Positions 8,965 to 41,087 of a stretch of 64,000 bases of DNA are shown here, one piece after another. Made by a program: the position numbers and the translations under genes. How positions within the stretch are numbered: the first letter of the stretch is position 1; each line of letters begins with the position of its first letter. The DNA comes from Chloroflexota bacterium (GTDB lineage: Bacteria > Chloroflexota > Anaerolineae > Anaerolineales > UBA11579), in contig JABJGH010000009.1 of the NCBI GenBank assembly GCA_018662365.1, positions 16,713-80,712 of the forward strand, read 5' to 3'. Under the pieces are notes generated by a model. It was not told the DNA's origin and searched no databases. It saw only the letters and a list, made by a program, of their open reading frames with translations.

Positions 8965-9630
8965 ATGAAACTTTGGGCTGTAATCCCGATAAAACCATTG
9001 CGACGGGGGAAGTCTCGCTTAGCAGATGTATTGACAGTAGATGAAAGGGCAAAACTTAATAAAAATTTATTAATACATACCTTAGAAACACTTTCGGATA
9101 TTCCTGAATTGGAAAGGATTCTTGTTGTTAGTCGAGATACGAAAGCATTAACACTCGCAAGAAAATATGGTGCAAAAACTATTCAGGAAGATGGCACTCC
9201 CCATCTAAATGTTGCTCTAAATCGAGCCGTGGCTATCGCGACCTCTGTGACAAATCCAGGAATTTTGGTGTTGCCTGCAGATCTACCCTTATTGAAAAAA
9301 GAAGATATCAGTGCAATGATTAAAAAGGCATCTGATTCACCGGTGATGGTTATTTCACCGGATCATCAAAAGCGGGGTACAAATGCTTTGCTATTAAATC
9401 CAGTAGGTGATTTTATCTATGATTTTGGCAGCAACTCATATGAACGTCATATTGAGCAAGCGGAGGGACTAGGATATAAGGTCGAGATTTGCGAGATCAC
9501 ATCCGTAGCAATGGATCTTGACCTGCCAGAAGATTTGGAATTCCTCAACGGAGAAGTAAAAAATTGGCTGGTCAATGTAGATGAAGACTCACCAACCGTA
9601 TCTTCTGATTATTATGAAAGAATGACTTAG
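8965..9630 (+). CDS. cofC: 2-phospho-L-lactate guanylyltransferase
   Basis: 221 residues, activates the phospho-acid with GTP to supply CofD. The N-terminus LWAVIPIKPLRRGKSRLADVL is the nucleotidyltransferase loop, LVLPADLPLLKKEDI is the metal-binding strand, and SPDHQKRGTNALLL and the GSNSYERHI segment are typical of CofC. The C-terminal 20 residues are an acidic tail. A separate TATAAT at 8910-8915 suggests an internal promoter, and a strong terminator follows at 9655, closing the operon. Confidence 0.93.
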   Translation: MKLWAVIPIKPLRRGKSRLADVLTVDERAKLNKNLLIHTLETLSDIPELERILVVSRDTKALTLARKYGAKTIQEDGTPHLNVALNRAVAIATSVTNPGILVLPADLPLLKKEDISAMIKKASDSPVMVISPDHQKRGTNALLLNPVGDFIYDFGSNSYERHIEQAEGLGYKVEICEITSVAMDLDLPEDLEFLNGEVKNWLVNVDEDSPTVSSDYYERMT

Positions 9631-14793: not shown

Positions 14794-15546
14794 ATGATCA
14801 AAGAGTATTATCGTCCTGAGACAATTGAGGAAGCCTTAGAATTATTAGCTCGAGAAACCCCACTCACTAGACCAATGGCAGGTGGAACTGAATTAAATTC
14901 ACCCTCAAATGATCAATTTGATGTGGTGGATTTACAATCTCTTGGTTTAGATAAGATCGAATTGAAAGGTAGCAACATCAAAATTGGTGCGATGGCTACA
15001 TTGCAAGACCTTTTAAGTGTTTCAGACTTGCCATCGGCGTTATCCGAGGCCATTCATCATGAGGCCACATATAACCTTCGCCAATCTGCGACTGCGGCGG
15101 GCACTTTGGTTTCTGCTACTGGCCGCTCGGCATTTGCAACAGCTCTGTTGGCTTTAGATGCCCAACTTGTGATGATGCCGAATGAAGAAAAATTAGCCTT
15201 AGGAGAATTACTTCCCTTGCGATCAGAATTGTTAAAGGGAAAACTTATCACAGAAATATTGATTCCCGGAAATGTGAAATTAGCTTATCAATATGTTTCA
15301 CGAAGTCCAGCCGACTTACCGATCGTTTGTGTGGCAGTTGCTGCGTGGTCTTCAGGCCGAACCCGAATTGTTTTGGGTGGGTACGGCACGGCACCAATAA
15401 TGGTTGTAGATGGCAAAGATGAAAACGATGTTTTATCAGCAGTCGGTCACGCATATATGCAGGCAGAAGATGAATGGGCGTCGGCAGAATATCGAGTTGA
15501 AATTGCGAAAACCTTAACCAAACGATGTTTGTACCTTGTGAAATAG
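14794..15546 (+). CDS. Molybdenum hydroxylase FAD-binding subunit (divergent)
   Basis: 250 residues of the FAD_binding_5/CO_deh_flav_C type. The N-terminal FAD motif is RPMAGGTELNSP (standard is AGGTDL). The second FAD segment reads RQSATAAGTLVSATG, where most relatives have a GGN core, so it is divergent. The C-terminal CO-dehydrogenase flavoprotein domain is short. It should pass electrons from the 2Fe-2S/Mo fusion protein at 18.5-21.5 kb to an acceptor, but an M16 peptidase gene lies between them. A GGAG ribosome site precedes the start. Confidence 0.8.
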   Translation: MIKEYYRPETIEEALELLARETPLTRPMAGGTELNSPSNDQFDVVDLQSLGLDKIELKGSNIKIGAMATLQDLLSVSDLPSALSEAIHHEATYNLRQSATAAGTLVSATGRSAFATALLALDAQLVMMPNEEKLALGELLPLRSELLKGKLITEILIPGNVKLAYQYVSRSPADLPIVCVAVAAWSSGRTRIVLGGYGTAPIMVVDGKDENDVLSAVGHAYMQAEDEWASAEYRVEIAKTLTKRCLYLVK

Positions 15547-18553: not shown

Positions 18554-21547
18554 ATGAAAATAAATTTATCGATCAATGGAATAAATAAAGAATTCAAAAC
18601 CTCTCCGGGAGATAGCCTGTTAAAGACTCTCCGATCGGAAGGATATTTTGGCGTTAAACATGGATGCGAGACAGGGGAGTGCGGTGCTTGTACGATCCTT
18701 TTGGACGGCAAATTAGTCAACGGCTGTTTGACGAGTGCGGCCCAAGCCAATGGGAAAAGTATTGAAACGATTGAAGCCGTTGGGGAACATCCAGAACAGG
18801 GTTGGAAATCCACTGATGGATTGCATCCAATTCAACAATCCTTTGTGGAAAGTGGGGCGATCCAATGTGGTTTTTGTACGCCGGGGATGGTGTTGGTAGC
18901 AAAAGAATTATTAGCCCGAAATCCTGACCCGACGGAAGAAGAAGTTCGCGATGTGCTTTCGGGGGTTTTATGCCGATGTACTGGATATGTAAAACCGGTG
19001 CAGGCAATTTTGCATGCTGCCGCAGTTCTTAGAGGGGAAGCTCAGCCGGGTGAAATGATCTCAGGGGAAATTTGGAGCCAATTATTTACTGCGCCTGAAA
19101 CAGATATCCCTTCCGATGGGGATGCTCCTACGGCTGTACGAGTCTTACCCAAGGTAGTCATTGTCCCTGAAACTGAAAAATGGAAAACGGTGGGCAAATC
19201 GGAACCAAAACTTGACGCAGTCAAACTGGTTCAAGGAAAGCCCGCTTTCACCGCAGATATTGAAAAACGAGATATGTTGTATGCCAAGGTGCTTTATAGC
19301 CCAGTGGCTCATGCAAATATTACAGAGATCGATGCCAGTAAAGCTCGCGCCTTGGAAGGTGTTGCGGCAGTACTTACTCATAAAGATATTCCTCGAGTAG
19401 TTTATTCGACTGCCGGACAATCCGACCCGATCCCTGGGCCACTGGATATGTTTTCGCTAGATAATAAAGTGCGCTATGTGGGAGACAGAGTGGCGTTTGT
19501 GGCAGCAGAAACTGCTGAAATTGCTGAACAAGCATTAAAACTGATCGAGGTTGAATACGAAGAACTTCCTGCAATCATTGATCTAGGGGATGCCTTAGAT
19601 AATGAAATAAAGATCCATGACGAACCGGAATTCGTGGATTTTGCAGATTCTGATGCCAGTCGAAATTTGGCGGCAGAAATCCGAATTGATATTGGGGATG
19701 TAGAAGCAGGTTTCGCCGAGGCTGACCATATATTTGAAGGGGAGTATGAGGTGCCGAAGGTGCAGCAAGCGCATATTGAACCACATGTGGTGGTGACCTA
19801 TTGGGATGAAGATGACCGCATGGTCATACGTACAAGTACGCAAGTGCCTTTCCATGCCCGAAGAATCTTGGCTCCGGTATTGGGTTTGCCGATCAAACGC
19901 ATCCGTGTAGTCAAACCTCGGATCGGTGGTGGGTTCGGCAATAAACAGGAAGTACTGATTGAAGATGTGGCAGGTCACTTAACGATCGCTACCGGTCGGC
20001 CGGTACTATTTGAATATACGCGAGAGGAAGAATTTACTGCCTCGCGCGCTCGTCATCCGATGAGGATCAAATTGAAGACCGGCGTGAAGAACGATGGCAC
20101 GATCACCGCAAATGCGATGTATGCCCTTAGTAACACGGGTGCCTACGGCTGCCATGCGTTAACTGTCACCGGAAATACAGGGCATAAGGCAATGGCGATG
20201 TATGTGGGTGATGGTAAATATCGTGAGAAACCAAATATTCAATTCAATGCAGATATTGTCTATACCAACACCATGCCCGCCGGTGCTTACCGGGGTTATG
20301 GCGTGCCTCAAGGATATTGGCCCGTAGAACGCCAAATGGAAAGAATCGCTCATAAACTTGGTCTGGACCCGATTGAATTTCGGTTGAAGAATGCATTACG
20401 AGAAGGGGAGTTACAGCCCTTTAGTACTGCCTGGAGCGAGGGCCGCGAACCCAGCCCCGAAACGATTGAGACCAATGGTTTAGAAGAATGTGTCCGTCAA
20501 GGAAAAGCGGCGATTGGTTGGGACCAAAAATATTCTGATGAAAATTGGCAAATTGTGCCTGATAAACCCTGGCTTAGAAAAGGCGTAGGGGTGGCGATGG
20601 TGATGCAGGGCACTGCGATTCCCTACCTTGATATGGGAGGTGCCAGCATTAAGATGAATGATGATGGTTCCTTTAATGTATTGGTGGGGGCCACCGATCT
20701 TGGAACCGGATCAGATACCGTCCTAGGGCAGATGGCTGCGGAGGTGCTTGGGGTGCCTTTGGAAGATATGTTGGTTTATTCCTCGGATACGGATTTTACG
20801 CCTTTTGATGTGGGTGCCTATGCCTCCAGTACGACCTATATTTCTGGAGCTGCAGTGGTTAAGGCAGCCCAACAAGTTGCTGAAAGAATTATGGTTCGAG
20901 CGGCAATGATCCTAAATGATAAAGGGGAAGGTCTTGAGGTAGAACCAGGGGAAATCTTATTAGCCGACCGTAAGGCAACATCCTTGGATGGACGATCTGT
21001 AAGTTTTAATGAGATCGGGCATCATTCGCTGCATCATAGCAATCAGGAACAGATCATGGGGATTGGATCTTATGTTTCACCAGTGGCGCCACCACCTTTC
21101 GGGGCTCAGTTTGCCGAGGTGACGGTGGATATTGAAACTGGTGCCATAACGGTAGATAAATTGGTAATGGCTGTGGATTCTGGCATTATTGTGAACCCAG
21201 TAACTGCCTCGGGTCAGATCGAAGGGGGGATGGTTCAGGCCCTTGGGTATGCGGTCTCTGAAGAAATGGTCTACAACGAAAAAGGGGAATTACGCGAGAA
21301 AGACTTGCGCGATTATCATATTTTTCATTCGCATGAAATGCCAGAAATGGAAACGATCTTTGTGGAGACCTTTGAGCCTTCACATCCATTTGGGGTGAAA
21401 GCGGTCGCAGAAATTCCGATGGATGGCGTTGCGCCAGCAGTGGCAAATGCGATCATGCATGCCAGTGGAGCAGACTTGAGTGAAATTCCAGCTACCCCGG
21501 AAAGGGTATGGCGGGCGCTGAATATCATTTCGTTAGGGAATGAATGA
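18554..21547 (+). CDS. Xanthine-dehydrogenase-family hydroxylase, 2Fe-2S and Mo-cofactor domains fused
   Basis: 997 residues. Residues 1-75 are a plant-type 2Fe-2S domain (Cys 38, 43, 46, 58 in GCETGECGACTILLDGKLVNGC, quoted by position), and 80-150 hold the second 2Fe-2S domain (QCGFCTPG and LCRCTGY). After a linker of about 50 residues, the Mo-binding part runs from residue 215 to the end with PRIGGGFGNKQE, GAYRGYGVPQ, and the catalytic Glu in VKAVAEIP. The FAD subunit is at 14.8 kb. GAYRGYG and QAHIEPH resemble hydroxylases of aromatic or N-heterocyclic compounds more than classical xanthine dehydrogenase, so the substrate is open. Confidence 0.92.
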   Translation: MKINLSINGINKEFKTSPGDSLLKTLRSEGYFGVKHGCETGECGACTILLDGKLVNGCLTSAAQANGKSIETIEAVGEHPEQGWKSTDGLHPIQQSFVESGAIQCGFCTPGMVLVAKELLARNPDPTEEEVRDVLSGVLCRCTGYVKPVQAILHAAAVLRGEAQPGEMISGEIWSQLFTAPETDIPSDGDAPTAVRVLPKVVIVPETEKWKTVGKSEPKLDAVKLVQGKPAFTADIEKRDMLYAKVLYSPVAHANITEIDASKARALEGVAAVLTHKDIPRVVYSTAGQSDPIPGPLDMFSLDNKVRYVGDRVAFVAAETAEIAEQALKLIEVEYEELPAIIDLGDALDNEIKIHDEPEFVDFADSDASRNLAAEIRIDIGDVEAGFAEADHIFEGEYEVPKVQQAHIEPHVVVTYWDEDDRMVIRTSTQVPFHARRILAPVLGLPIKRIRVVKPRIGGGFGNKQEVLIEDVAGHLTIATGRPVLFEYTREEEFTASRARHPMRIKLKTGVKNDGTITANAMYALSNTGAYGCHALTVTGNTGHKAMAMYVGDGKYREKPNIQFNADIVYTNTMPAGAYRGYGVPQGYWPVERQMERIAHKLGLDPIEFRLKNALREGELQPFSTAWSEGREPSPETIETNGLEECVRQGKAAIGWDQKYSDENWQIVPDKPWLRKGVGVAMVMQGTAIPYLDMGGASIKMNDDGSFNVLVGATDLGTGSDTVLGQMAAEVLGVPLEDMLVYSSDTDFTPFDVGAYASSTTYISGAAVVKAAQQVAERIMVRAAMILNDKGEGLEVEPGEILLADRKATSLDGRSVSFNEIGHHSLHHSNQEQIMGIGSYVSPVAPPPFGAQFAEVTVDIETGAITVDKLVMAVDSGIIVNPVTASGQIEGGMVQALGYAVSEEMVYNEKGELREKDLRDYHIFHSHEMPEMETIFVETFEPSHPFGVKAVAEIPMDGVAPAVANAIMHASGADLSEIPATPERVWRALNIISLGNE

Positions 21548-28810: not shown

Positions 28811-28816
28811 TATTTT

Positions 28817-29026: not shown

Positions 29027-29045
29027 GCAATTATTAGTAAAACAA

Positions 29046-29212: not shown

Positions 29213-30559
29213 ATGCCTGCCTTATACGTGATTGGTCATGTAAACCCTGATATGGATTCGATTGCCTCGGCCATCGGATATGCCTGGTTAATTAAGCAAC
29301 GTGATGAAACGGATACAATCGCTGCTCGAGCAGGTGCATTAAACCCCCAAACCAGTTGGGTATTAAATCATCTTGGTATTGATGCACCGACCCTCCTCTC
29401 TGATGCCTCTCCCAGATTTGAATCAGTTACGCGTCGGTTTGACACACTCACCCCAGACCAACCATTGCGGGAAGCGTGGATCGTTGCCAGTCGAACTGGC
29501 GGTGTAGCCCCTGTCGTAAATGAAGATGGAAGTCCGTATGGTCTGGTAACCGGTTGGAGTCTATTCAACTATTTAAGTGAGGGGGTAGGACCGAATTTAA
29601 AAAGAGACGAATCCCAGATCACAGAATTATTGGATGCACCGTGCAAGAATGCTTGTCAAACTGGGGTGCCAGTATTTCGAGCCAATGCGCGAATTCGAGA
29701 TTCTCTGAATCGGATCTTACGAGAAGAATCCACCGATTTTTGGGTCGTCGATGAGTTTCAAAAATATGTCGGTATCTGTCGACAAAGGGATATGCTCAAT
29801 CCTCCCCGGCTTCGAATTATCATGGTTGATCATAACGAAGCCCGTCAAGCGATTGGGTCGATAGAAGAGGCAGAATTGGTAGAGATCTTGGATCACCATC
29901 GATTAGATAATCCGACTACAAAAACGCCGATACGGGTGACAGTGGATGTTGTGGGAAGTACCTGTACCTTAGTTTCTGAAAGAATTGAGGAATCTGGCCT
30001 TTCCGCTCCTGCTGAGATTGCCGGGCTATTATTAGCAGGGCTATTAAGCGATACACTCATTCTTACATCACCCACAACCACTCCTAGAGATCATAAAGCA
30101 GCTGCAAGACTAGCGCGATGGGCTTTCCGATCTGGCACTGTTTTGAAAAATGAAACGATCGAAAGTTATGGGGACAAGATTTTAGCTGCAGGGGCAGGGT
30201 TGAAAACCCGCAAACCTGAAGAGATCATTCAGAATGATATGAAAGAGTACCATTCAGGGGATTGGAAATTTTCTGTATCACAAGCAGAAGTAACAAAATA
30301 TTTGGAGTTAGAAGAAATAGCTGGGGATTTACGAAAAATATTGGATGAGCATGCCCATCGGAATGGCTATGATTTTGCAGTGTTAATGGTGACCAATGTT
30401 GTGGGGGGCTCAAGCCGTTTATTATTGACCAGTAAATTTCCAGAAATATTGAATGAATTACCTTACCCTCCCATGCCAGATAATACTCGAAAAGCTGAGG
30501 GGGTTGTTTCTCGTAAAAAACAACTTTTGCCTGTTGTCCTAGGGTTATTAGAGGTCTAA
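29213..30559 (+). CDS. ppaC: CBS-domain family II (Mn-dependent) inorganic pyrophosphatase
   Basis: 448 residues. The DHH motifs of family II pyrophosphatase are HVNPDMDSIASA (His9, Asp13, Asp15), MVDHNE, LDHHR, and the SDT of LLSDTLILTSPT. The C-terminal DHHA2 domain ends with SRKKQLLP, the substrate-binding Arg/Lys motif. Between the first DHH motif and DHN, residues about 70-205 hold a pair of CBS domains that in such enzymes bind AMP/ADP/ATP and regulate activity; no DRTGG domain is present. It hydrolyses cytoplasmic pyrophosphate. Its stop overlaps the xdhC start (TAATG), so the two are coupled. Confidence 0.93.
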   Translation: MPALYVIGHVNPDMDSIASAIGYAWLIKQRDETDTIAARAGALNPQTSWVLNHLGIDAPTLLSDASPRFESVTRRFDTLTPDQPLREAWIVASRTGGVAPVVNEDGSPYGLVTGWSLFNYLSEGVGPNLKRDESQITELLDAPCKNACQTGVPVFRANARIRDSLNRILREESTDFWVVDEFQKYVGICRQRDMLNPPRLRIIMVDHNEARQAIGSIEEAELVEILDHHRLDNPTTKTPIRVTVDVVGSTCTLVSERIEESGLSAPAEIAGLLLAGLLSDTLILTSPTTTPRDHKAAARLARWAFRSGTVLKNETIESYGDKILAAGAGLKTRKPEEIIQNDMKEYHSGDWKFSVSQAEVTKYLELEEIAGDLRKILDEHAHRNGYDFAVLMVTNVVGGSSRLLLTSKFPEILNELPYPPMPDNTRKAEGVVSRKKQLLPVVLGLLEV

Positions 30560-31359
30560 TGGTGGATTTTTCTCGCGTTGCCGAACTACAAGCTTTAGGG
30601 AAGGAGATCGCCCTTTGCGTAATTGTGAAAACCACCGGGTCTACACCGCGTCGGGCTGGTGCAAAGATGATCGTATTTCCAGATGGTCAATTTGAGGGAA
30701 CAGTTGGCGGGGGGGAAATGGAAAGCTTGGTGATCAAGGAAGCAATAAAGGCAATTGAATCCGGACAGTCTACAACCGTGGAATATCAAATGACAGATCC
30801 CCATAGGGGTGATCCAGGTGTATGTGGTGGACAATTGGAGGTCTATGTGGAACCTATAGTGGCAAAGCAAACCCTTGTGGTAGTCGGGGCTGGGCATGTT
30901 GGTAAAGCAGTTGTAGAACTGGCCCATTGGTTAGATTTCCAAGTCATAGTTTTGGATGATCGGGATGGGTTTGCTAATGCAGAATCGGTTCCAGATGCAG
31001 ACGAATATTTTTCTATTCCCTTATCCCAATTGCCAAATAAAGTAAATATTCACCGCAATACATTTATTGTCTTATCCACTCGGGGAGTGGATGTGGATGT
31101 AGAAGGCTTGCCAGCTATTTTGGAATCAGAAGCAGGGTATATTGGGGTAATAGGCTCAAAGCGACGATGGAAAACCACTGAAGAAAAGTTGCTTGAAAAA
31201 GGAATAAGTAAGGAACTTCTAAACCGAGTTGTGTCCCCGATGGGTTTAGAGATCGATGCAGAAACCCCAGAAGAGATCGCCCTCAGCATTCTTGCTGAGA
31301 TTGTGATGCTCCGACGAGGTGGCGATGGAAAAAGAATGACACGGGTCGAAAAAGAGTAA
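30559..31359 (+). CDS. xdhC: XdhC/CoxI-family Mo-hydroxylase maturation protein
   Basis: 266 residues. Residues 1-90 are the XdhC_CoxI domain (VIVKTTGSTPRRAGAKM, GTVGGGEMES, and the CGG of PGVCGGQLEVYVEP). Residues about 105-250 are the Rossmann XdhC_C domain with VVVGAGHVGKAVVELA and YIGVIGSKRRWK. XdhC binds molybdenum cofactor, keeps it sulfurated, and inserts it into xanthine-dehydrogenase-type enzymes. It lies directly upstream of the FAD/2Fe-2S fusion gene. Confidence 0.94.
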   Translation: MVDFSRVAELQALGKEIALCVIVKTTGSTPRRAGAKMIVFPDGQFEGTVGGGEMESLVIKEAIKAIESGQSTTVEYQMTDPHRGDPGVCGGQLEVYVEPIVAKQTLVVVGAGHVGKAVVELAHWLDFQVIVLDDRDGFANAESVPDADEYFSIPLSQLPNKVNIHRNTFIVLSTRGVDVDVEGLPAILESEAGYIGVIGSKRRWKTTEEKLLEKGISKELLNRVVSPMGLEIDAETPEEIALSILAEIVMLRRGGDGKRMTRVEKE

Positions 31360-31462
31360 TAATATTCGACCTATTCTTTTTAAGATAATCAATTTTGAAA
31401 ATTAGTGATTTCAGACTAAAATGCATTAGTAGTGAAATATTTGTAAATATTGTGGAGAAATT

Positions 31463-32878
31463 ATGTGGCAAGAATATTATCAACCCGCACAGGTTGAAGA
31501 AGTTTTAGATTTATTAGATCAATATCAAGCGCGGGCTCGAATAATTGCTGGCGGAACGGACTTAATATTAGAGCTCGAAGCGGGATTAAGATCTGGTATA
31601 GAGGTGCTGATCGATGTAAGCCGGATAGCTGGATTAGATCAGATCGTCCTTGATGAAGATAATAATATTCACCTAGGACCTTTGGTCACCCATAATCACT
31701 GTGTCGCATCCAAATTAATTAGGGAATGTGCTTTGCCTTTGGCACAAGCCTGTTGGCAGGTTGGTGCCCCCCAAATACGTAATCGCGGGACGATCGCCGG
31801 AAACCTAATTACCGCTTCTCCCGCAAATGACACGATCACGCCGCTCATGGCTATGGAGGCTAAGGTGGTAGTTCGATCAAAAGAAGAGGAAAGAACTATA
31901 TCCTTAGAGGAATTTTTTAAGGGTGTCCGAAAAACGCTTTTAAAAGAAAATGAAATGTTAGTGGATATCGTCTTTCCAGCATTGCAGTCAGAAAAACAAA
32001 AGGGGAATTTTTATAAGCTAGGCTTGCGGCGTGCACAGGCGATTTCTGTAATTAATGTGGCAGCAGTTCTTGATTTTGAGGAAGAGAAAGTTTTGAAAGC
32101 AAGAATTACTTTGGGATCGGTAGCGCCGACAATCGTGCACGCAACTGAAGCTGAGGAATATCTTGTAGGAAAAGAATTGAATGTTGAAACGATTTCTAAA
32201 GCAAGTGAGCTAACCGAAAAAGCTGCCAAACCAATTGATGACCTGCGCGGGTCTGCAGAATATAGAAAATATATGATTGGAGTAAGTGCAGGAAGGGCAT
32301 TAGAGGCGATCGCAAATAATACTCAGGGGGAGGACATTCCCTCCGATCCTGTATTGCTATGGGGTACAAAAACATTTCCCGAATTCAATCTTGCTGAGTC
32401 TTCAAATTTTACTTCTAATCAACCAATTCAAACAACGATCAATGGCAAAAAAGTAGAGTTTAAAACCGGTCATCAAAAAACTTTGCTCCGGTTAATTCGA
32501 GAAGAAGCAGGTCTGACTGGCACTAAGGAAGGTTGTTCTGAGGGTGAATGTGGTGCTTGCACGGTGTATTTGGATGGGGTTGCGGTGATGAGCTGTTTAG
32601 TTCCTGCTCCCCGGGCACATCAGGCAGAGATCGAAACTGTGGAGGGCTTAAGCCAAGATGAACGGCTTCACCCAGTACAGCAAGCTTTTATAGATGAAGC
32701 TGCTGTTCAATGTGGATACTGCACCCCAGGGTTTTTAATGTCAGCAGCAAAATTATTAGACGAAAAACCAGAGCCAAGCAAAGAGGATATTCAATACGCG
32801 ATCACAGGAAATTTATGTCGATGTACCGGGTATTACAAGATCATCCGGGCAGTTGAAACTGCTGGAAAGGCTAGGTGA
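31463..32878 (+). CDS. Molybdenum hydroxylase electron-transfer subunit: FAD domain fused to 2Fe-2S domains
   Basis: 471 residues. Residues 1-285 are the FAD-binding and CO-dehydrogenase-flavoprotein-C domains (ARIIAGGTDLILEL, IRNRGTIAGNLITASPAND). Residues about 315-470 are the two 2Fe-2S domains, with CSEGECGACTVYLDG and a following MSC, then QCGYCTPGF and LCRCTGYYK. The order FAD then 2Fe-2S is the reverse of eukaryotic xanthine dehydrogenase. The matching Mo subunit is at 35.0-37.2 kb. GGAG precedes the ATG. The product should carry electrons from the Mo centre to NAD+ or another acceptor. Confidence 0.93.
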   Translation: MWQEYYQPAQVEEVLDLLDQYQARARIIAGGTDLILELEAGLRSGIEVLIDVSRIAGLDQIVLDEDNNIHLGPLVTHNHCVASKLIRECALPLAQACWQVGAPQIRNRGTIAGNLITASPANDTITPLMAMEAKVVVRSKEEERTISLEEFFKGVRKTLLKENEMLVDIVFPALQSEKQKGNFYKLGLRRAQAISVINVAAVLDFEEEKVLKARITLGSVAPTIVHATEAEEYLVGKELNVETISKASELTEKAAKPIDDLRGSAEYRKYMIGVSAGRALEAIANNTQGEDIPSDPVLLWGTKTFPEFNLAESSNFTSNQPIQTTINGKKVEFKTGHQKTLLRLIREEAGLTGTKEGCSEGECGACTVYLDGVAVMSCLVPAPRAHQAEIETVEGLSQDERLHPVQQAFIDEAAVQCGYCTPGFLMSAAKLLDEKPEPSKEDIQYAITGNLCRCTGYYKIIRAVETAGKAR

Positions 32879-32881
32879 GCC

Positions 32882-33274
32882 ATGAGATATGATTACACTA
32901 AACCCAAGCCCAAGCCCAAGAAAAAAAAGGGGCAACACCCTGTTTGGCGGGGAATTGGTTTTGTAATAATGGTCATTATTCCGATAATATCCTTTGGATT
33001 TTCCGAGATATTTCTAAATTATTTGGAAGAAAATGTACGTGGTTTTTCAATTCCCTCACAACTTCGCAGTGGTCCTTTTCAAATCACGGAAGATTGGGTA
33101 ATAATGGATATCTTGGCAGTAATCGCAGTTGGTATCGTTGTGATGTTCTTTTTATTGTCCATATTTGCAATTATCAATACATTGATCTATGGTTTTACAA
33201 GAGATAAAAAGAGTGACGTTTTCGAGGCGAATAAGAAAGAATTTAAAAAGAAGAAAAGGAATATTAAACGGTAG
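32882..33274 (+). CDS. Two-helix membrane protein with Lys-rich ends
   Basis: 130 residues. The N-terminus is basic with a KPKPKPKKKK tract; membrane segments lie at about 23-45 and 75-105, and the C-terminus is again Lys-rich (EFKKKKRN). Both ends are predicted cytoplasmic. It starts 3 bases after the FAD/2Fe-2S gene and ends 9 bases before the next, so it is part of the hydroxylase operon. I do not recognise a family. Confidence 0.72.
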   Translation: MRYDYTKPKPKPKKKKGQHPVWRGIGFVIMVIIPIISFGFSEIFLNYLEENVRGFSIPSQLRSGPFQITEDWVIMDILAVIAVGIVVMFFLLSIFAIINTLIYGFTRDKKSDVFEANKKEFKKKKRNIKR

Positions 33275-33283
33275 GGAATCCTT

Positions 33284-34987
33284 ATGGAAAGAGCTGTCCC
33301 GAAAGTGGTTTCTGAAGAAATTGAGCTTTATCTCCGCACCTATTATTCCCTTTTAAGAACTTCTACCGAAGTAAAGTTGAGGAGTTTGGTGGAGGCTCAT
33401 GCGGGAATGAATTCTCTTTTGCATCCCGAGGCTAGAAGTGCCAACCCCGACATGTCAGCCTTTATTTATTCTGTTTTGCGTATGCCCCCAGAAATGCAAT
33501 CTATTCGACTGGTCGTCATGGGCCAAAGTCGGGAAATGTTCCAAAAATCTGGAATAGGTGATTTGAAGAAATGGGAATCCGTAGAAGCAGCCGCCCGCCG
33601 GAGACGTACTTTTTTCGATGGTAAAAGCCGGTTAGCCATTTTGATCGCTAGTCGGTCAGACATTGATGATATTGTCCCTATGCTAACCGCTTATCAAATT
33701 GAATGGAATAAGCTCCATAATTTATTGCAAAAATTCCCGGATTCCTTTTCATTTTCAAATGCCCTAAACGAGGAATCTGAAAAAGAAAAATTTGCTTCCT
33801 CTCTTTTGATCACAGTGGATGATCTGGAAAGACTCTCAACGATTTGGGGGGAAAAGTTTGGTTCAAATTTGAAAATGATTCGAAAGGAACGACTTAGCTT
33901 AAAGGTTCAATTGCTCAGTGGTTCTTTGATGGAATATCGCCGAGCAATAAATGAATGGTGGACCAGGATTGAAGAAGCTTTACCCTCCTTTAGACATCGA
34001 CCGATCTATTTTGTTTCAAGTAATTCTCACAGTCTAATCAATATTGTCACTGGTTTCGCGTTGAAGCATGAAAAAGCATTAGTTAAATTCTTAGAAGATA
34101 CTGATGACGAGTTATTGCAAAAAGAATGGGCAGATATTCAGGCAAATGTCGTGCCCTCATCACGGGAAAATTTCTTTTATTACATCATGAAGAAATATCT
34201 TGGGACACCTTCTGGCGCAAAGTTAAATGAAATCTTGAGTGAGGAAGAAGCCAGTTGTGAAATTCAAAGAGTTACCAGCGCACAGAATTTTGATATCGAA
34301 GCGCAAGTAATTCCCATGTCAAAAATGAGTCAGGCAGCGTTAGATCCAAGATTGCAAGCCGAAGACAATCATTTACTAGAAAAATCCGATGCGATTATTT
34401 TGAATATTGACTACCCCCTAGGCTTAGCAGCTTATCAGGTATTGGCAGAGGTTTCTGACCATGTGGGACAAGTTTTAGGGGTTTATATCATGGGTAAATC
34501 CGCAACCTTAAATGGCGCGGTGGGGGATGTAATGATCCCCAATGTGGTATATGATGGGCATTCTCGAAATTCTTATATCTTTAATAACAGTTTTGAAGCT
34601 GAAGACGTCACCCCATACCTGGAATATGGCACTGTGCTAGATGGACAAAAAGCTGTCACTCTTTGGGGTACGTTTTTGCAAAACCATGATTATATGGATG
34701 TTTTCTATCGTGAGGGATACACAGATATTGAAATGGAGGCAGGTCCTTATCTTTCGGCGATCTATGAAATGGTACGCCCAAAACGCCATCCCATGGATGA
34801 GATCGTCAATTTATACGGATTGCCTTTTGATCTTGGTATCCTTCATTATGCATCGGATAAACCGATTAGCAAGGGAAAAAATCTTGGCTCGGCAAGTTTA
34901 TCCTATTTTGGAATGGATCCAACCTATGCCGCTTCCTTAGCTATCCTGAAACGAATCATTGAAATTGAAAAAGAAAGAATTAAGTAA
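33284..34987 (+). CDS. Large protein with nucleoside-phosphorylase/AMP-nucleosidase-like C-terminus
   Basis: 567 residues. Residues 1-290 are helical with no motif I can name (it may correspond to DUF6909). Residues about 350-560 look like a nucleoside phosphorylase fold: the strand AIILNIDYPLGLAAYQVL, the GKSATLNGAVGDVMIPNVV segment, and DIEMEAGPYL, which resembles the substrate-binding acidic MExA motif of phosphorylases and nucleosidases. It is in the middle of the second molybdenum-hydroxylase operon, 18 bases before the Mo subunit gene. A role in releasing a purine base from a nucleoside or nucleotide for the hydroxylase is inferred from fold and place. Confidence 0.6.
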   Translation: MERAVPKVVSEEIELYLRTYYSLLRTSTEVKLRSLVEAHAGMNSLLHPEARSANPDMSAFIYSVLRMPPEMQSIRLVVMGQSREMFQKSGIGDLKKWESVEAAARRRRTFFDGKSRLAILIASRSDIDDIVPMLTAYQIEWNKLHNLLQKFPDSFSFSNALNEESEKEKFASSLLITVDDLERLSTIWGEKFGSNLKMIRKERLSLKVQLLSGSLMEYRRAINEWWTRIEEALPSFRHRPIYFVSSNSHSLINIVTGFALKHEKALVKFLEDTDDELLQKEWADIQANVVPSSRENFFYYIMKKYLGTPSGAKLNEILSEEEASCEIQRVTSAQNFDIEAQVIPMSKMSQAALDPRLQAEDNHLLEKSDAIILNIDYPLGLAAYQVLAEVSDHVGQVLGVYIMGKSATLNGAVGDVMIPNVVYDGHSRNSYIFNNSFEAEDVTPYLEYGTVLDGQKAVTLWGTFLQNHDYMDVFYREGYTDIEMEAGPYLSAIYEMVRPKRHPMDEIVNLYGLPFDLGILHYASDKPISKGKNLGSASLSYFGMDPTYAASLAILKRIIEIEKERIK

Positions 34988-35005
34988 ATAATTAGAGGAA
35001 TTTTT

Positions 35006-37189
35006 ATGTCGATACTTGGTAAGTCTTATAAACGAGTAGATGCATTAGGAAAGGTAACGGGTGAGACACTTTATCCAGGGGATTTGGAGATGGAGGGTCA
35101 AACCTATATGAAGATCTTGTTTGCCCACCGACCTCATGCGATTGTTAAAAAAATTGATACCAGTAAAGCAGAGGCATTGGATGGTGTGCTATTAGTTCTC
35201 ACTGCTAAAGATGTACCCGTTAACGAATATGGGTTAATCTTTCCAGACCAACCTGTTTTATGTGGTCCTGGTTCTTCCAAGGTGGATGGAGACCATGTGC
35301 GTTTTGAAGGCGACCAGGTCGCTGCGATTATTGCTGAAACTGAAGAAATCGCCGATAAGGCGCGATCACTAATTGAAGTGGAATATGAAGATCTTCCCAT
35401 CACGAGTAATCCTGAAAAATCGATGAAGGACGATGCAGATTTGTTGCACCCTGACACTGAGTCGAATGTAATTACCCACTATAAAATTCGCAAAGGCGAT
35501 ATTGAATCCGCGTTTGAGAAGTCAGATGTGATCATTGAAGGGGAGTATCGAACTCCCTTCCAAGAACATGCTTTCTTAGCCCCTGAGGCAGGGATTGCAT
35601 ATGTGGATGAAGAAGATCGCATCACTGTGGCTGTGGCTGGTCAGTGGATACATGAGGAAGCGGAAGGGATCGCCCACGCCTTAGATTTGCCTCTAGAACA
35701 GATACGGGTCATTCAACCCGCTATTGGTGGGGCATTTGGTGGTCGGGAAGATATGTCGGTGCAAATTGTACTGGCACTGACTGTTATGAAATTTAGAGAA
35801 ATGGGAATCAACCGCCCAGTGAAGATCGTATGGACACGTGAAGAGTCGATGATCGGGCATCATAAGCGTCATCCATATTTAATCAGGGCTAAATGGGGGG
35901 CAAGTAAAGAAGGCAAAATTCTTGCCGCAGAGTCTGAAGTGATCGAAGATGCGGGTGCGTATAATTACACCTCCAATAAGGTTTTGGGAAACGCCACCCT
36001 AATGGTTTCTGGACCTTACGTGATCGACAATTTAAAAGTTGATTCTTATGCGGTATACACCAATAACATTCCCGGGGGGGCATTTAGAGGTTTTGGTGGA
36101 CCTCAAGCGGCCTTTGCCGCAGAACAGCAAATGAATAAAATAGCCCAAGCATTGGGGATGGATGAAGTTGAGCTACGTTTAAAAAATATTGTCAAAGATG
36201 GGTCGATCATGCATACCCAAACACCATTCCCCAGCCCTGTGACAATGGATAGAGTGATCGAAGAATGTGCAGAGGCTGCAAAATGGCCTAGAGTTATGGA
36301 AAGTACGGATTCTTCCATCAAACGAGGAATTGGATTTGCTTGTGGATTTAAAAATGTGGGATTTTCTTTTGGTGCGCCAGAACGGTCTTATGCAACGATC
36401 GAAATTCACGGCGGCTCTGAGATCGAGCGGGTCGTATTGCACCAGGCCGGTTCAGATGTCGGTCAGGGGGCACACACGGTGTTCCAACAAATGGCGGCGG
36501 AAGCTGTGGGGGTTCCATTTGAGATGGTTGAGTTGCAGGTCGCCGATTCAGCAGTAACTGGCGATTCGGGGAGTTCTTCCGCATCGAGAATGACCTTTAT
36601 GGCTGGGAATGCTATTAAGGGGGCAGCAAAATTGGCCTTAGAAATGTGGGAGGATGAAGATCGGCCAGTCATTGCGGAATATAAGTATGTACCCCCAGCT
36701 ACCACCCCCTATGATAAACAAACCGGGGAGGCGATGCCAAACTTTGCTTATGGCTACGTGGCTGAAACGGTCGAAGTCGAAGTAGATATGGATACTGGCG
36801 AAATTAAAATCGTGAATGTACTCTGTGCAAATGATGTGGGGAAGGCTTTAAATCCCATACAGATCGTAGGTCAAATTGAGGGGGCAGTAGTTCAGGCCGC
36901 GGGGTATACGATGATGGAAAATTTCATTTCCGAAGAAAGTCGGGTTAAAACCGATAAGTTTTCAACTTATCTGATCCCCACCGTCCTGGATATTCCCGAA
37001 ACGATTGACTCATTAGTTTTGGAGTTCAATGATGAAGAGGGACCTTGGGGCGCACGCGGCATGGGAGAAATGCCCTTCATCCCATTTGCACCAGCGGTAA
37101 CTGCCGCGGTTCACCAGGCCACAGGAATTTGGTTTGATAGCTTCCCACTTACCCCTGAGAAAGTTTTGCGGGGACTAGGGAAAATATAA
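35006..37189 (+). CDS. Molybdenum hydroxylase Mo-cofactor subunit (xanthine-dehydrogenase family)
   Basis: 727 residues, the length of a free-standing Mo subunit. The Mo-pterin and active-site motifs are IQPAIGGAFGGREDM, GGAFRGFGGPQAAFAAEQQM (substrate Arg in FRGFGGPQ), GSDVGQGAHTVFQQMAAEA, and the catalytic Glu in GARGMGEMPF near the C-terminus. FLAPEAGIA near residue 190 and FRGFGGPQ are closer to purine hydroxylases than the fusion enzyme at 18.5 kb. It pairs with the FAD/2Fe-2S fusion at 31.5 kb. YqeB and YqeC downstream point to a labile selenium ligand at Mo. Confidence 0.93.
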   Translation: MSILGKSYKRVDALGKVTGETLYPGDLEMEGQTYMKILFAHRPHAIVKKIDTSKAEALDGVLLVLTAKDVPVNEYGLIFPDQPVLCGPGSSKVDGDHVRFEGDQVAAIIAETEEIADKARSLIEVEYEDLPITSNPEKSMKDDADLLHPDTESNVITHYKIRKGDIESAFEKSDVIIEGEYRTPFQEHAFLAPEAGIAYVDEEDRITVAVAGQWIHEEAEGIAHALDLPLEQIRVIQPAIGGAFGGREDMSVQIVLALTVMKFREMGINRPVKIVWTREESMIGHHKRHPYLIRAKWGASKEGKILAAESEVIEDAGAYNYTSNKVLGNATLMVSGPYVIDNLKVDSYAVYTNNIPGGAFRGFGGPQAAFAAEQQMNKIAQALGMDEVELRLKNIVKDGSIMHTQTPFPSPVTMDRVIEECAEAAKWPRVMESTDSSIKRGIGFACGFKNVGFSFGAPERSYATIEIHGGSEIERVVLHQAGSDVGQGAHTVFQQMAAEAVGVPFEMVELQVADSAVTGDSGSSSASRMTFMAGNAIKGAAKLALEMWEDEDRPVIAEYKYVPPATTPYDKQTGEAMPNFAYGYVAETVEVEVDMDTGEIKIVNVLCANDVGKALNPIQIVGQIEGAVVQAAGYTMMENFISEESRVKTDKFSTYLIPTVLDIPETIDSLVLEFNDEEGPWGARGMGEMPFIPFAPAVTAAVHQATGIWFDSFPLTPEKVLRGLGKI

Positions 37190-37240
37190 ATTATTAAATA
37201 GGTTGGGGATAGCTCACCCTATTTTATGAGGCCTAATTTC

Positions 37241-37975
37241 ATGGCTACCTGGATCGCCCATCTAAGAATTGCTGAAGAACTGCTTGCGAAAATACCCCAG
37301 CTTGATGCCCATCAATTTGCAATTGGCAATATAGCCCCAGATTCGGGTATTCCCGACGAACACTCTGAAAACTTTGAGCCACCGAGTAGGATTACACATT
37401 TATTGGTTGAAAACGAGGATGAAGAATTTCAATATCGAGATTTTGATTTTTATAAGGAATTTTTGTCATCAATCAATCCATTTGGGAGGGAGACCAATAA
37501 ATTTTCCTTCTTATTAGGCTATTTCTTTCATATAATCACCGATAATTTATGGTTTATAAAGATTGGACGTCCTTCGAGAATAAAATATTTATCCAAATTT
37601 GAAAATAAACGGGTTTTTTCTAAAGAGATCAAAAAGGATTGGTATGGCCTTGATTTTGCCTATGTACGCAATAATCCAGATAGCATTTATTGGAAAATAT
37701 TTCTAAATAGCGAATATAAAGAAAATTTTTTAGATTTTTATCCAAATGACACAATTGCCAGGCAGGTGGAATTTTTAAAGAATTTTTACAAACGGGCGGA
37801 TAAAGAGATCGATGAAAATTATCGAATTCAGGACAATATATATCTGAGTAAAGACGAAGTAGATATTTTTGTGAAAGAAACAGTAAACACGCTATTGAAG
37901 ATTTATAAAATTCTTTGGATAGAACAAACTGAGGTAGAGGTTAATCATTCTGTTCTGGAAATAACTGGCGTTTAA
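37241..37975 (+). CDS. Zinc-dependent phospholipase C-like hydrolase
   Basis: 244 residues from the ATG at 37241, chosen because the family begins MATWIAHLRIAEEL; an upstream ATG at 37226 has no better ribosome site. Zinc ligands typical of the family are visible: His of WIAHLRIAE, His of HQFAIGNIAPDSGIP with its Asp, His of ITHLL, and the HxxxD of FLLGYFFHIITDNLW. There is no signal peptide, unlike secreted phospholipases C. It overlaps nothing but ends 2 bases before the alpha/beta hydrolase start, so the two are coupled. Substrate unknown. Confidence 0.75.
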   Translation: MATWIAHLRIAEELLAKIPQLDAHQFAIGNIAPDSGIPDEHSENFEPPSRITHLLVENEDEEFQYRDFDFYKEFLSSINPFGRETNKFSFLLGYFFHIITDNLWFIKIGRPSRIKYLSKFENKRVFSKEIKKDWYGLDFAYVRNNPDSIYWKIFLNSEYKENFLDFYPNDTIARQVEFLKNFYKRADKEIDENYRIQDNIYLSKDEVDIFVKETVNTLLKIYKILWIEQTEVEVNHSVLEITGV

Positions 37976-37977
37976 GC

Positions 37978-38868
37978 ATGTTTGGAAAATTTGAAATTCC
38001 CTTTCCCGGTGAAATATTAAAGATAAATGAGGTATCTCGTTCAAATCTCCCCGGAGATTTTATTGAATTAAGTAATGGGTTCACCCATTATCAATTGCAA
38101 GGATCTATAGAAGCCCCATTGGTTGTTTTGGTACATGGCTTTTCCACCCCAAATTTTATTTGGGACCCTACCTTCGATGCATTGCTTGCTGCGGGATATC
38201 GAGTGCTTCGCTATGATCTGTTTGGAAGAGGGTATTCAGATCGACCTTTTCATGTATATAATCGAGAGCTTTTTTCCAGACAACTCTCTGAATTGTTGAA
38301 AGGGTTAGATATTATCGGCAAATTTTCCTTGTTCGGGTTATCCATGGGGGGCATTATCGCCGGTGATTATGCTGTGAATAACCCCGACCGTATCTCTCAT
38401 TTGGGGTTATTTGATCCGGCAGGGGCCGATGCAGGTCCCATGCCCCTTATGATGAAAATTGGATTAATCCCCGGCCTGGGGGAGATTCTTCTGAGTTTAC
38501 TTGGAAACAAAAGAATCGAGAAATTTTTGGTCAATGATTTTTTCAATATTAAGGATATCTCCTCGGTAATTGAACAAATTCGTCCGCAATTAAAATATAA
38601 AGGCTATAAACGAGCCCTCTTATCTACCTTAAGAGCAGGGGTATTAAACGAAGCGAAAGATATCTATCAAAATATTGGTGAGGGAGATTTGCCAGTTTTG
38701 CTCATCTGGGGGGAAGAGGACAAGGCAGTGCCTTTTGAGCAGAGTGAAAGTATGATTAAATTAATCCCCCAAACTGAATTTCACCCGATTACTGGGAGTG
38801 GTCATATTCCGCATTATGACAAGCCCGAAATTGTTAACCCAATTCTGTTAGAATTTCTAGAACGATAA
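37978..38868 (+). CDS. Alpha/beta-fold hydrolase
   Basis: 296 residues. The oxyanion region VLVHGFSTPNFIWDP, the nucleophile elbow GLSMGG near residue 121, an acidic residue in WGEEDKAVPF, and the His of SGHIPHYDKP form a complete triad. It resembles MhpC/BioH-type hydrolases with a lid at about 145-215. Co-transcribed with the upstream phospholipase-like gene. Substrate unknown. Confidence 0.88.
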   Translation: MFGKFEIPFPGEILKINEVSRSNLPGDFIELSNGFTHYQLQGSIEAPLVVLVHGFSTPNFIWDPTFDALLAAGYRVLRYDLFGRGYSDRPFHVYNRELFSRQLSELLKGLDIIGKFSLFGLSMGGIIAGDYAVNNPDRISHLGLFDPAGADAGPMPLMMKIGLIPGLGEILLSLLGNKRIEKFLVNDFFNIKDISSVIEQIRPQLKYKGYKRALLSTLRAGVLNEAKDIYQNIGEGDLPVLLIWGEEDKAVPFEQSESMIKLIPQTEFHPITGSGHIPHYDKPEIVNPILLEFLER

Positions 38869-38911
38869 CCATCCTTGGGAATTATTATTCCTAAATTTAT
38901 TTAGAGGTTAG

Positions 38912-39718
38912 ATGAATACAAATATTCTTATTCGGGGGGGAGGGGATTTAGCCAGTGGGGTAGCCGCTCGGCTCCATCGTGTTGGATTTAAAATTCTCAT
39001 TACCGAATTGGCCCAACCATTGGTCGTTCGCCGCACGGTGTCTTTTGCTGAAGCAGTGTTTTCTGGCCAAACTCAGGTCGAAGAAATTATTGCTGAGAAG
39101 GCAAACAACTTTTTAGAAATTGAAGCAATTCATCGAGCCAATAAAATCGCGGTTGTGGTTGACCCTAAAATGGCGATGCTGTCCGAGTATAAACCATCGA
39201 TATTGGTGGATGCGAGGATGATGAAACAACCACCAAATGTTGGTCTGGAAGTCGCAGAATTTGTAGTGGGACTCGGTCCTGGTTTTTTGGCGGGAGACAA
39301 TTGCCATGCAGTGGTGGAGACCATGCGTGGACATACCCTGGGTCGAGTGATCTGGCAGGGAAAGGCAATAGAAGATACTGGAATCCCAGATGCAGTAGAA
39401 GGGATTCGGGCAGAACGGGTTTTGCGAGCTGGAACGCGGGGGTTGTTGAAGACCTTTGTAGAAATTGGCCAACATTTGGAAAAAGGAGATTTAATTGCAG
39501 AGGTTAATTCTCAAAAAATCACGTCTCCTTTCAAGGGTGTATTACGCGGATTGATGAAAGATGGCATTGAGGTCAAGAAGGGCATGAAGATTGGAGACGT
39601 GGACCCCCGGAATGAGGATCAATATATTCATTCCATATCAGATAAAGCCCTATCTATTGGTGGGGGGGCTTTAGAAGCGATTCTGAGTCAGCCTCAATAT
39701 TCAATAGTCAAGAGATAG
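38912..39718 (+). CDS. yqeB: YqeB: selenium-dependent molybdenum hydroxylase system protein
   Basis: 268 residues. The family is recognised by ILIRGGGDLASGVAARLHRVG at the start (quoted in part), LAQPLVVRRTVSFAEAV, ILVDARMMK, VGLGPGFLAGDNC, ETMRGHTLGRVIWQG, and the C-terminal GGGALEAIL. yqeB genes occur with selD and yqeC in genomes that make molybdenum hydroxylases with a labile selenium ligand. It follows the second hydroxylase module and precedes the yqeC-mocA fusion. No selD is in this window. Confidence 0.9.
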   Translation: MNTNILIRGGGDLASGVAARLHRVGFKILITELAQPLVVRRTVSFAEAVFSGQTQVEEIIAEKANNFLEIEAIHRANKIAVVVDPKMAMLSEYKPSILVDARMMKQPPNVGLEVAEFVVGLGPGFLAGDNCHAVVETMRGHTLGRVIWQGKAIEDTGIPDAVEGIRAERVLRAGTRGLLKTFVEIGQHLEKGDLIAEVNSQKITSPFKGVLRGLMKDGIEVKKGMKIGDVDPRNEDQYIHSISDKALSIGGGALEAILSQPQYSIVKR

Positions 39719-39752
39719 TATTTTTTTATAATCTTTTACAGCGGAAAGTATT

Positions 39753-41087
39753 ATGCAGTTGATCGATGGCATTCGAATAGATAAAAACTCTCGGGTTGCT
39801 TTTGTGGGTGCAGGGGGGAAAAGCACTTCCATGTTTAGACTTGCCCAACAATATCAGGGGAAATGTATCCTCAGCACCAGTACCCATTTGGCGTTAGCAC
39901 AAGTAAAATTAGCCGACCAGCATATTATTGTTGGGAATATTGCTGATCTAGACCAACTGCATAACGATCTTCCTGATGGAATTACTTTAATTAGTGGCCC
40001 AAAATGGAGGAATGATCGTGTAGGTGCTTTATCCGATGAGATTTTTCAAGAGTTAGATCAACTGGCAGCGAAACACCAGGTCCCAATATTAATTGAAGCA
40101 GATGGTTCGCGACGATTACCCCTGAAATCTCCTGGAAATCACGAACCTGCTATTCCTCCGATCGTCAATACGGTGGTCGTGTTAGTTGGATTTAGCGGTC
40201 TAGGAATGCCTCTAAACGAAAAGAATGTGCATCGTCCAGAATTATTTTCAAAAAGGACAGGTCTTGAAATGGGGGAACTTATCGAGAAGAAACATTTATT
40301 AGATTTAGTGCTTCACCCTGAGGGGGGATTAAAAAATATTAAGGAAGGAATGAAAAAAGTGCTTTTCTTAAATCAAGCGGATACAAATTCTTTGGTAACT
40401 ATTGCCAGCTCTATGTCCCCCGCCATTTTAAAGAAATATGATCAGGTAGTAGTAGGTAGTTTGAATAAGATGAACGATGAAATACATATTAGACATCATC
40501 GGGTTGCCGGGATTGTATTAGCAGCGGGGGGATCAGAAAGATTGGGGGAACCCAAACAATTACTAGATTGGAAGGGAACCCCATTTATCCGAGCGGTTGT
40601 AATGAAGGCAATTGCCGCGGGATTGGATCAAGTTGTTGTTGTAACTGGAGCATTTTCAGAAAAAACTTCAAAAGCTGTGCAGGGTTTACCAGTCAAAATT
40701 ATTCATAATGAAAATTGGTCTGAAGGACAAAGTACATCTGTGAAAAAAGGGATAGAATCGCTAGATCAAAATATTGGCGCAGCCGTTTTCTTACTCGTTG
40801 ACCAACCTCAGGTCTCCTCTACATTAATTAAAAAACTTATTGAAACATATTCGATTTCAAAAGAACCAATTATTGGTACATTAGTAGATGGCCAAAGAGG
40901 GAACCCGGTTCTTTTTGATAGGTCCACTTTTGCAGATCTGGGAAATATTCAGGGAGATAAAGGGGGGAGACAGATATTTTCAAAATACCCCGTTCGCTGG
41001 ATGCCTTGGCTAGATCAGATTATGGCACTAGATGTTGATAATCCCGGAGATTATGAAAAACTTCTCAATTTTAAAGAACAAAAGTAA
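39753..41087 (+). CDS. YqeC-MocA fusion: selenium cofactor protein joined to molybdopterin nucleotidyltransferase
   Basis: 444 residues. Residues 1-245 are YqeC (FVGAGGKSTSMFRLA nucleotide-binding loop at about 18-32, ILSTSTHLAL, LIEADGSRRLPLKSPG, FLNQAD). Residues about 250-444 are a MobA/MocA-type nucleotidyltransferase: VLAAGGSERLGEPKQLLDW, LVDQPQV with the metal Asp, and the GNPVLFDRS loop. YqeC and MocA are usually separate; the join ties selenium handling to cytidylylation of molybdopterin for xanthine-dehydrogenase-type enzymes. About 150 bases separate it from the pyrophosphatase gene. Confidence 0.9.
   Translation: MQLIDGIRIDKNSRVAFVGAGGKSTSMFRLAQQYQGKCILSTSTHLALAQVKLADQHIIVGNIADLDQLHNDLPDGITLISGPKWRNDRVGALSDEIFQELDQLAAKHQVPILIEADGSRRLPLKSPGNHEPAIPPIVNTVVVLVGFSGLGMPLNEKNVHRPELFSKRTGLEMGELIEKKHLLDLVLHPEGGLKNIKEGMKKVLFLNQADTNSLVTIASSMSPAILKKYDQVVVGSLNKMNDEIHIRHHRVAGIVLAAGGSERLGEPKQLLDWKGTPFIRAVVMKAIAAGLDQVVVVTGAFSEKTSKAVQGLPVKIIHNENWSEGQSTSVKKGIESLDQNIGAAVFLLVDQPQVSSTLIKKLIETYSISKEPIIGTLVDGQRGNPVLFDRSTFADLGNIQGDKGGRQIFSKYPVRWMPWLDQIMALDVDNPGDYEKLLNFKEQK

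Follow-up and report, generated by a model that had tools for sequence, protein, structure and literature searches.

A candidate urate-degradation gene set joining predicted selenium-dependent molybdenum hydroxylases and cofactor F420 in a Chloroflexota genome

We analysed a stretch of 64,000 nucleotides (hereafter the window) from a Chloroflexota bacterium of the class Anaerolineae, corresponding to positions 16,713-80,712 of the forward strand of contig JABJGH010000009.1 (assembly GCA_018662365.1). The genome it belongs to, G000, comprises 2.79 Mb in 66 contigs and is 94% complete. Two gene groups in the window are the subject of this work (Table 1): an operon of molybdenum (Mo) hydroxylase subunits and their maturation proteins, among them the predicted selenium-cofactor protein YqeB, and an upstream block in which the predicted hydrolase SsnA stands with genes for cofactor F420 and a further Mo hydroxylase. 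Their possible joint role in the anaerobic breakdown of urate is considered here.

Table 1. Genes of the two groups, in window coordinates, with the main evidence for each assignment (NCBIfam scores and cut-offs in bits)
Feature	Coordinates	Strand	Evidence or remark
SsnA, predicted ring-opening hydrolase	4084..5430	+	TIGR03314 494.1, cut-off 455.5
NpdG, NADPH:F420 reductase	5476..6132	+	TIGR01915 176.8, cut-off 149.8
CofE, F420 gamma-glutamyl ligase	6129..6884	+	TIGR01916 268.6, cut-off 180.65
CofD	7929..8861	+	TIGR01819 308.1, cut-off 257.45
CofC	8965..9630	+	TIGR03552 157.1, cut-off 105
LLM, luciferase-family F420-dependent-type oxidoreductase, predicted yanthine reductase	13243..14241	+	
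FAD2, YgfM-like FAD subunit	14794..15546	+	best TIGR03312 103, below cut-off 241.5; 32% to E. coli YgfM
Mo2, XdhD-like 2Fe-2S + Mo fusion, predicted urate reductase	18554..21547	+	37% to XdhD
CBS-DHH-DHHA2 inorganic pyrophosphatase-like protein	29213..30559	+	first operon gene
XdhC-type maturation protein	30559..31359	+	31.8% to E. coli YqeB, N-terminal half
FAD-binding + 2Fe-2S subunit fusion of Mo hydroxylase	31463..32878	+	Pfam PF00941, PF03450, PF01799
DUF6909 protein	33284..34987	+	residues 220-565 predicted NP-I (nucleoside phosphorylase) fold
MoA, Mo-binding subunit, xanthine dehydrogenase type	35006..37189	+	E802-, R880-, E1261-equivalents retained
YqeB, predicted selenium-cofactor maturation	38912..39718	+	TIGR03309 325.7, cut-off 220
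YqeC-MocA fusion	39753..41087	+	PF19842 + PF12804; YqeC part TIGR03172 161, cut-off 73.05

The operon genes all fall between 29213 and 41087 on the + strand, separated by -1 to 103 bases. An earlier note on this DNA had described XdhC, an FAD/2Fe-2S fusion and a Mo subunit followed by YqeB and a YqeC-MocA fusion on one strand, and this order was borne out (30,559-41,087); the operon also includes the CBS-DHH pyrophosphatase-like gene, DUF6909, a Zn_dep_PLPC protein and an alpha/beta hydrolase (Pfam). By BLAST, the window YqeB matches E. coli YqeB over the C-terminal half of the latter, at 45% identity. The MocA part of the fusion scores 152.8 bits with TIGR03310, below the cut-off of 186.45, while XdhC and MoA fall below the cut-offs of the NCBIfam models and above those of Pfam. 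The top NCBIfam scores of MoA (pucD 565, XdhA 473 and Se_dep_XDH 473 bits) are likewise all below cut-off. The operon is flanked by the pyrophosphatase-like gene (29213-30559) on one side and, on the other, by a gene at 41243-43588 that by eye is membrane H+-pyrophosphatase-like. The MocA and CofC reactions release pyrophosphate.

In the upstream block, the SsnA homologue that the same note had placed at 4.1 kb scores above the cut-off of its model, as do cofE, cofD, cofC and npdG, which bears out the suggested link to F420. A second Mo hydroxylase with an FAD subunit of its own follows at 14794-21547. The genes proposed here for the upper pathway are interrupted in the window by FeoB- and DtxR-like genes (9947-13009; presumptive labels, from sequences read by eye) and by a 7.7 kb stretch (21548-29212).

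A further cluster lies on another contig of G000, C42. It encodes an 8-oxoguanine deaminase (691.7 bits, cut-off 532), YgeY (444 bits, cut-off 321.5), carbamate kinase (388.2 bits, cut-off 358.25) and HyuA (537.2 bits, cut-off 393.25), together with a YgeW-like carbamoyltransferase, an ATCase-like protein and ThrC-like and CysK-like enzymes; selB is found about 5 kb further on. HyuA taken alone says little, because it is common in the class: it exceeds its cut-off in 104 of the 150 Anaerolineae genomes that we surveyed (labelled G followed by a number). The idea that two adjacent carbamoyltransferases replace YgeY was dropped, YgeY being located just upstream on C42. Two other genes recur around this cluster. 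After the CysK-like enzyme, both G000 (L212 7161-7739) and G127 (L114 5404-6165) encode a protein with no NCBIfam match, and its relatives precede SsnA in loci L196 and L199. A gene that we take, by eye, to be glycosyltransferase-like interrupts the cluster at matching positions in two distant genomes (L212 4610-5551, L114 7816-8889).

Taken globally, the operon and the SsnA-F420-XdhD-like block are likely to form the upper half of a reductive pathway of urate degradation, with hydroxylases carrying predicted labile selenium and a dearomatising reductase dependent on F420H2; we put the probability of this reading at about 0.6. Mechanistically, the 8-oxoguanine deaminase and the xanthine dehydrogenase (XDH)-type MoA would first yield urate; the purine bases might be released from nucleosides or nucleotides by DUF6909, a guess from its fold and place. 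The XdhD/YgfM-like enzyme would then reduce urate to yanthine, as its homology and the residue in the E606 column (see below) suggest. In turn, LLM would reduce yanthine with F420H2 regenerated by NpdG, the F420 part being a prediction of Li et al. 2025, and SsnA would open the ring. The C42 enzymes (HyuA, the YgeW-like transferase, carbamate kinase and YgeY) would subsequently strip the ureido groups and make ATP, with one of two pyridoxal phosphate (PLP) enzymes as the putative final lyase. As for selenium, selenophosphate would come from SelD, and XdhC and YqeB together would exchange the Mo-bound sulfur for selenium on the cytosine dinucleotide cofactor that MocA would make.

The neighbours of LLM bear on its place in this scheme. 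A protein scan of named genomes returned 165 LLM relatives, of which 80 loci were kept (labelled L followed by a number; 72 Chloroflexota and 8 Actinomycetota, assigned by title). In the 48 Chloroflexota loci with more than 5.5 kb of upstream flank, CofC (45), CofD (44), CofE (42), SsnA (41) and NpdG (40) stand on the same strand as LLM. Downstream, the 45 loci with more than 8 kb of flank hold FAD2 in 23, the FAD/2Fe-2S fusion in 18, MoA in 16, Mo2 in 15, a relative of the pyrophosphatase-like gene in 10 and YqeB in at least 4, the last a lower bound as flanks often end before its place. Single runs in which SsnA, the F420 genes, LLM, MoA and YqeB follow one another occur in G127 (L071, L114) and in L142, L150, L154 and L196. 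In G127 one strand of about 27 kb unites the upper part (SsnA, NpdG, CofE, CofC, LLM, XdhC, FAD/2Fe-2S fusion, DUF6909, MoA, YqeB, YqeC, MocA) with a lower part of amidohydrolase, HyuA, adenine deaminase, two carbamoyltransferases, carbamate kinase and two PLP-type enzymes.

LLM could instead be an F420-dependent methylene-tetrahydrofolate (Mer-like) reductase or another reductase of general metabolism, its position in the SsnA block then having no bearing on yanthine. Its best solved relatives are indeed F420-dependent Mer, and so are its best NCBIfam models; LLM nevertheless scores 162.7 bits, below the Mer cut-off of 348.7. SsnA accompanies it in most Chloroflexota loci, as counted above, and a relative of SsnA is present in 5 of the 8 Actinomycetota loci. 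The E. coli reductase gene ygfK likewise lies beside ssnA. On balance we regard a Mer-like role as improbable.

Other genes in and around the block are recorded here for completeness. A PPOX-class F420 protein (7488-7898; TIGR03618 86.2, cut-off 79.05) sits inside the F420 gene run. An M16-type peptidase with weak NCBIfam matches separates FAD2 from Mo2 (15631-18543) and has a relative in 8 of the 80 loci. Divergent from the block, a dipeptidase-type M20 protein is encoded on the - strand at 783-2168. We rejected it as a YgeY candidate, as the dipeptidase model gives 506.9 over a cut-off of 441 and the YgeY model just 53.5 bits. A cluster of M20-like open reading frames (u12) was seen in 8 relative loci.

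Regarding substrate, MoA carries Glu and Arg at the places of E802 and R880 of bovine XDH (whose numbering is also used for E1261), against Leu and Arg in the nicotinate dehydrogenase 3hrd. The earlier note had left the choice between purines and another N-heterocycle. A module acting on nicotinate or a pterin, for instance, is conceivable insofar as the Mo subunits fall below the curated cut-offs and the models leave the substrate unsettled. The Glu at the purine-binding E802 place, the clustering of 8-oxoguanine deaminase, YgeY, HyuA, the YgeW-like protein and carbamate kinase in G000, and the adenine deaminase within the G127 run all argue against it, and we consider such a substrate very improbable. 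The purine class is thus better supported than before.

Mo2 aligns with E. coli XdhD at 36.7% identity over 1023 columns (600 bits, BLAST). In the available text of Li et al. 2025 (PMC12507026), XdhD turns urate into yanthine, E606, present in XdhD but not in XdhA, is suggested as a reason, and an F420-dependent yanthine reductase is predicted for Chloroflexota. The E606 column, which lies beside gaps, holds Glu in Mo2 and in 18/18 aligned relatives, Ser in MoA and a gap in XdhA.

The earlier note had proposed a genome-wide search for selD, naming its absence as one refuting outcome, and for selenocysteine and 2-selenouridine genes. G000 has selD (364.3 bits, cut-off 125), with one in-frame TGA at the selenocysteine place of the active-site motif KCAG-U-AS. 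It also has selB (361.5 bits) and a selenocysteine tRNA with anticodon tca; the profile search of G000 gave no match for SelU. A second match to the selD model, below cut-off, resembles what we take, by eye, to be a hydrogenase-maturation gene. Three markers of the selenium-cofactor trait are present together, namely selD and, both above curated cut-offs, YqeB and YqeC. For MoA itself selD says little, because the selenocysteine system of this genome also needs it.

The distribution of these genes was examined across the 150 genomes. Above cut-off are yqeB in 92, selD in 126, selB in 124, yqeC in 97 and DUF6909 in 41. By Fisher's test, which ignores kinship among genomes, selD is found in 82 of 92 genomes with yqeB, against 44 of the 58 that lack it (p=0.04); for selD or selB the counts are 86 of 92 against 46 of 58 (p=0.018). 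In the 78 well-assembled genomes (at most 300 contigs, at least 90% complete, at most 5% contaminated), a quality cut chosen only after the exceptions had been noticed, selD or selB is present in 54/54 genomes with yqeB versus 18/24 without (p=0.0005). All but one of these 54 have selD, and the exception, G084, has selB. Conversely, six well-assembled genomes from four families (G003, G016, G073, G083, G140, G146) have neither selD nor selB, and yqeB is found in none of them; five of the six keep MoA (here and below, relatives at ≥55% identity). YqeC accompanies yqeB, occurring in 85 of 92 genomes with it and 12 of 58 without. In these data YqeB appears to follow selenium, in contrast to the Mo subunit; the use of MoA as a selenium marker was not supported, its association with yqeB being not significant (p=0.13). 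Separately, in G049 a selD match of 403 bits lacks the TGA within an open frame of 770 residues, perhaps a fusion (G049:C515:18799-19725); this genome also has another, TGA-containing selD, and selB gave no match there.

Closely related operons with and without YqeB allow a comparison. In the genus labelled g55, G055 has the order FAD/2Fe-2S fusion, DUF6909, MoA, YqeB, YqeC, MocA, along with selD and selB. Its congener G083 has FAD/2Fe-2S fusion, DUF6909, MoA, MocA, with 61 bases between the matched MoA and MocA stretches, and its genome shows no match for yqeB, yqeC, selD or selB. G146, of the same family, has MoA followed by YqeC-MocA with no YqeB, and neither selD nor selB. A different case is G107 (97% complete, 60 contigs), where a Cys-type selD goes with FAD/2Fe-2S fusion, MoA, YqeB, YqeC and MocA; there is no selB and no SelU above cut-off there, selA and tRNA-Sec not having been searched for. 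It resembles the orphan-selD case in the available text of Haft and Self (PMC2276186).

These data also bear on an alternative in which the same pathway runs on ordinary sulfur hydroxylases, YqeB and YqeC serving cofactor trafficking here without inserting selenium. In its favour, MoA relatives with the same key residues persist in 12 well-assembled genomes without yqeB: the five already mentioned without selD and selB, and seven that have selenium genes, including G019, which shares its family with G055. Moreover, yqeC stands without an above-cut-off yqeB in 12 of the 150 genomes, although in two of them, G030 and G104, yqeB is broken or partial (at G030:C1:3237786-3238548 it matches as several short pieces in different frames). 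On the other side, yqeB is absent from every well-assembled genome lacking both selenium genes and has gone from the otherwise kept operons of G083 and G146; in C. difficile, according to the available text of PMC11448449, yqeB and selD mutants share a urate/xanthine growth phenotype. We judge the sulfur version unlikely, yet with appreciable weight.

The seven genomes with selenium genes and MoA but no yqeB, and the lack of a MoA-yqeB association, weigh against the pathway reading with selenium hydroxylases, and so do the following observations. Without the quality filter, selD is missing from 10 of the 92 genomes with yqeB, and in 6 of them selB is missing too. MoA, Mo2 and FAD2 are all below the cut-offs of the selenium-hydroxylase models; for MoA the curated Se_dep_XDH model TIGR03311 gives 472.7 bits of the required 830.45, the model spanning 848 positions of which the N-terminal part matches the 2Fe-2S domain, here fused to the FAD subunit. 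In the available text of PMC11448449, deletion of yqeC in C. difficile had no obvious phenotype. The equivalents of E802, R880 and E1261 are identical in 26/26 aligned MoA relatives, from all groups. As for the pathway enzymes, the YgeW-like protein scores 188.7, below the YgeW cut-off of 500, and the two PLP-type enzymes of G000 are no more than distant matches to YgeX (27% over part). Mo2 scores almost equally with the XdhD-type model TIGR03313 (695.8 bits) and the XdhA model (695.4), both below cut-off, E. coli XdhA is nearer to Mo2 (35%) than to MoA (28%), and the R880 place holds Gln in XdhD and Arg in Mo2, MoA and XdhA. How the hydroxylase roles are shared between MoA and Mo2 is less certain than the pathway itself, because the E606 column contrasts with the equal model scores, the XdhA identities and the residue at the R880 place. 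Selenium in the enzyme stays a prediction, because genomes devoid of selD, selB and yqeB hold close relatives with unchanged key residues, so that active-site residues do not separate selenium from sulfur. Of the interpretation in the earlier note, then, the module, the SsnA link, the F420 link and the purine class have gained support, while the selenium has kept its predicted status.

DUF6909 deserves separate mention. Its residues 220-565 are predicted to adopt the NP-I fold; the stretches IEMEAGPYL and YASD are, as we take them, NP-I-like, and all the titles matched presumably belong to the NP-I superfamily. It would thus resemble nucleoside phosphorylases and AMP nucleosidase of that class in fold and differ from them by some 220 additional N-terminal residues. 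Comparison with AMP nucleosidase and MTAN gave no sequence-level link (hhalign probabilities of 0.8% and 0.5%, from a shallow profile), and no PDB sequence matched at E<=10. The family counts 7,767 relatives found; the literature searched yielded no paper on it, and the fold prediction offers a first structural guess. In G094 the gene stands directly behind selD (G094:C12:502257-504976). A role in selenium metabolism was rejected in spite of that position and of MoA or YqeC neighbours in several genomes, DUF6909 showing no association with yqeB (p=0.46) or selD (p=1.0) over the 150 genomes.

More broadly, and at somewhat less than even odds, the class may hold a urate pathway that depends on selenium and F420 together. 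Two selenium Mo hydroxylases would make and reduce urate, an F420H2 reductase would break aromaticity, the F420 and selenium supply genes would travel as one unit, and YqeB would insert selenium and drop out when a lineage gives selenium up. If correct, the gene set on two genome pieces would allow uric acid to be broken down without oxygen, and F420 would join the redox cofactors of that process. The suspected selenium-loading role of YqeB is now directly checkable, because no well-assembled relative without the selenium genes has yqeB: the class contains related genomes with the same enzyme operon with and without YqeB and selD, and comparing two close proteins could show whether YqeB makes a selenium enzyme. 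In the literature searched, outside which most subscription journals lie, we found no paper joining selenium, Anaerolineae and molybdenum hydroxylase, none joining Chloroflexota, selenocysteine and Anaerolineae, and none beyond Li et al. 2025 on F420 with SsnA. The available text of PMC5322559 describes the selenium-cofactor trait as mainly one of Firmicutes and Enterobacteriales.

Among known systems, we compared by BLAST the E. coli K-12 cluster xdhABC-ygeWXY-hyuA-yqeABC-mocA-ygfK-ssnA-ygfM-xdhD with 19 proteins from G000. Counterparts were obtained for ygeW (35% identity), ygeY (38%), hyuA (39%), yqeA (50%), yqeB (both halves), yqeC (33%), mocA (23%), ssnA (35%), ygfM, xdhD, xdhB and xdhC; ygfK had no match among the 19 proteins and was not searched genome-wide. 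Unlike the E. coli cluster, G000 has an F420-type reductase and F420 genes in the SsnA block, separate XdhC and YqeB, fused YqeC and MocA, and its genes on two contigs. The Se-dependent Mo hydroxylase systems (Haft and Self 2008; Johnstone and Self 2024) described from Enterococcus faecalis, Clostridioides difficile and clostridia similarly combine YqeB, YqeC, MocA, SsnA and selD with Mo hydroxylase genes; the present set differs in its phylum, in its predicted use of F420 and in the predicted status of its labile selenium. A further one is the Chloroflexota variant of Li et al. 2025 (PMC12507026), in which SsnA lies close to Mo hydroxylase genes and a luciferase-family reductase; the main text of that paper does not mention yqeB. 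In the genomes described here cof genes, npdG and DUF6909 belong to one unit, and the lower-pathway genes are shown for one genome. The F420 variant with SsnA for Chloroflexota is thus already known as a printed prediction of Li et al. 2025, and what is added here is the link to selenium, the presence of F420 supply genes within the unit, the paired operons with and without YqeB, and the predicted fold of DUF6909.

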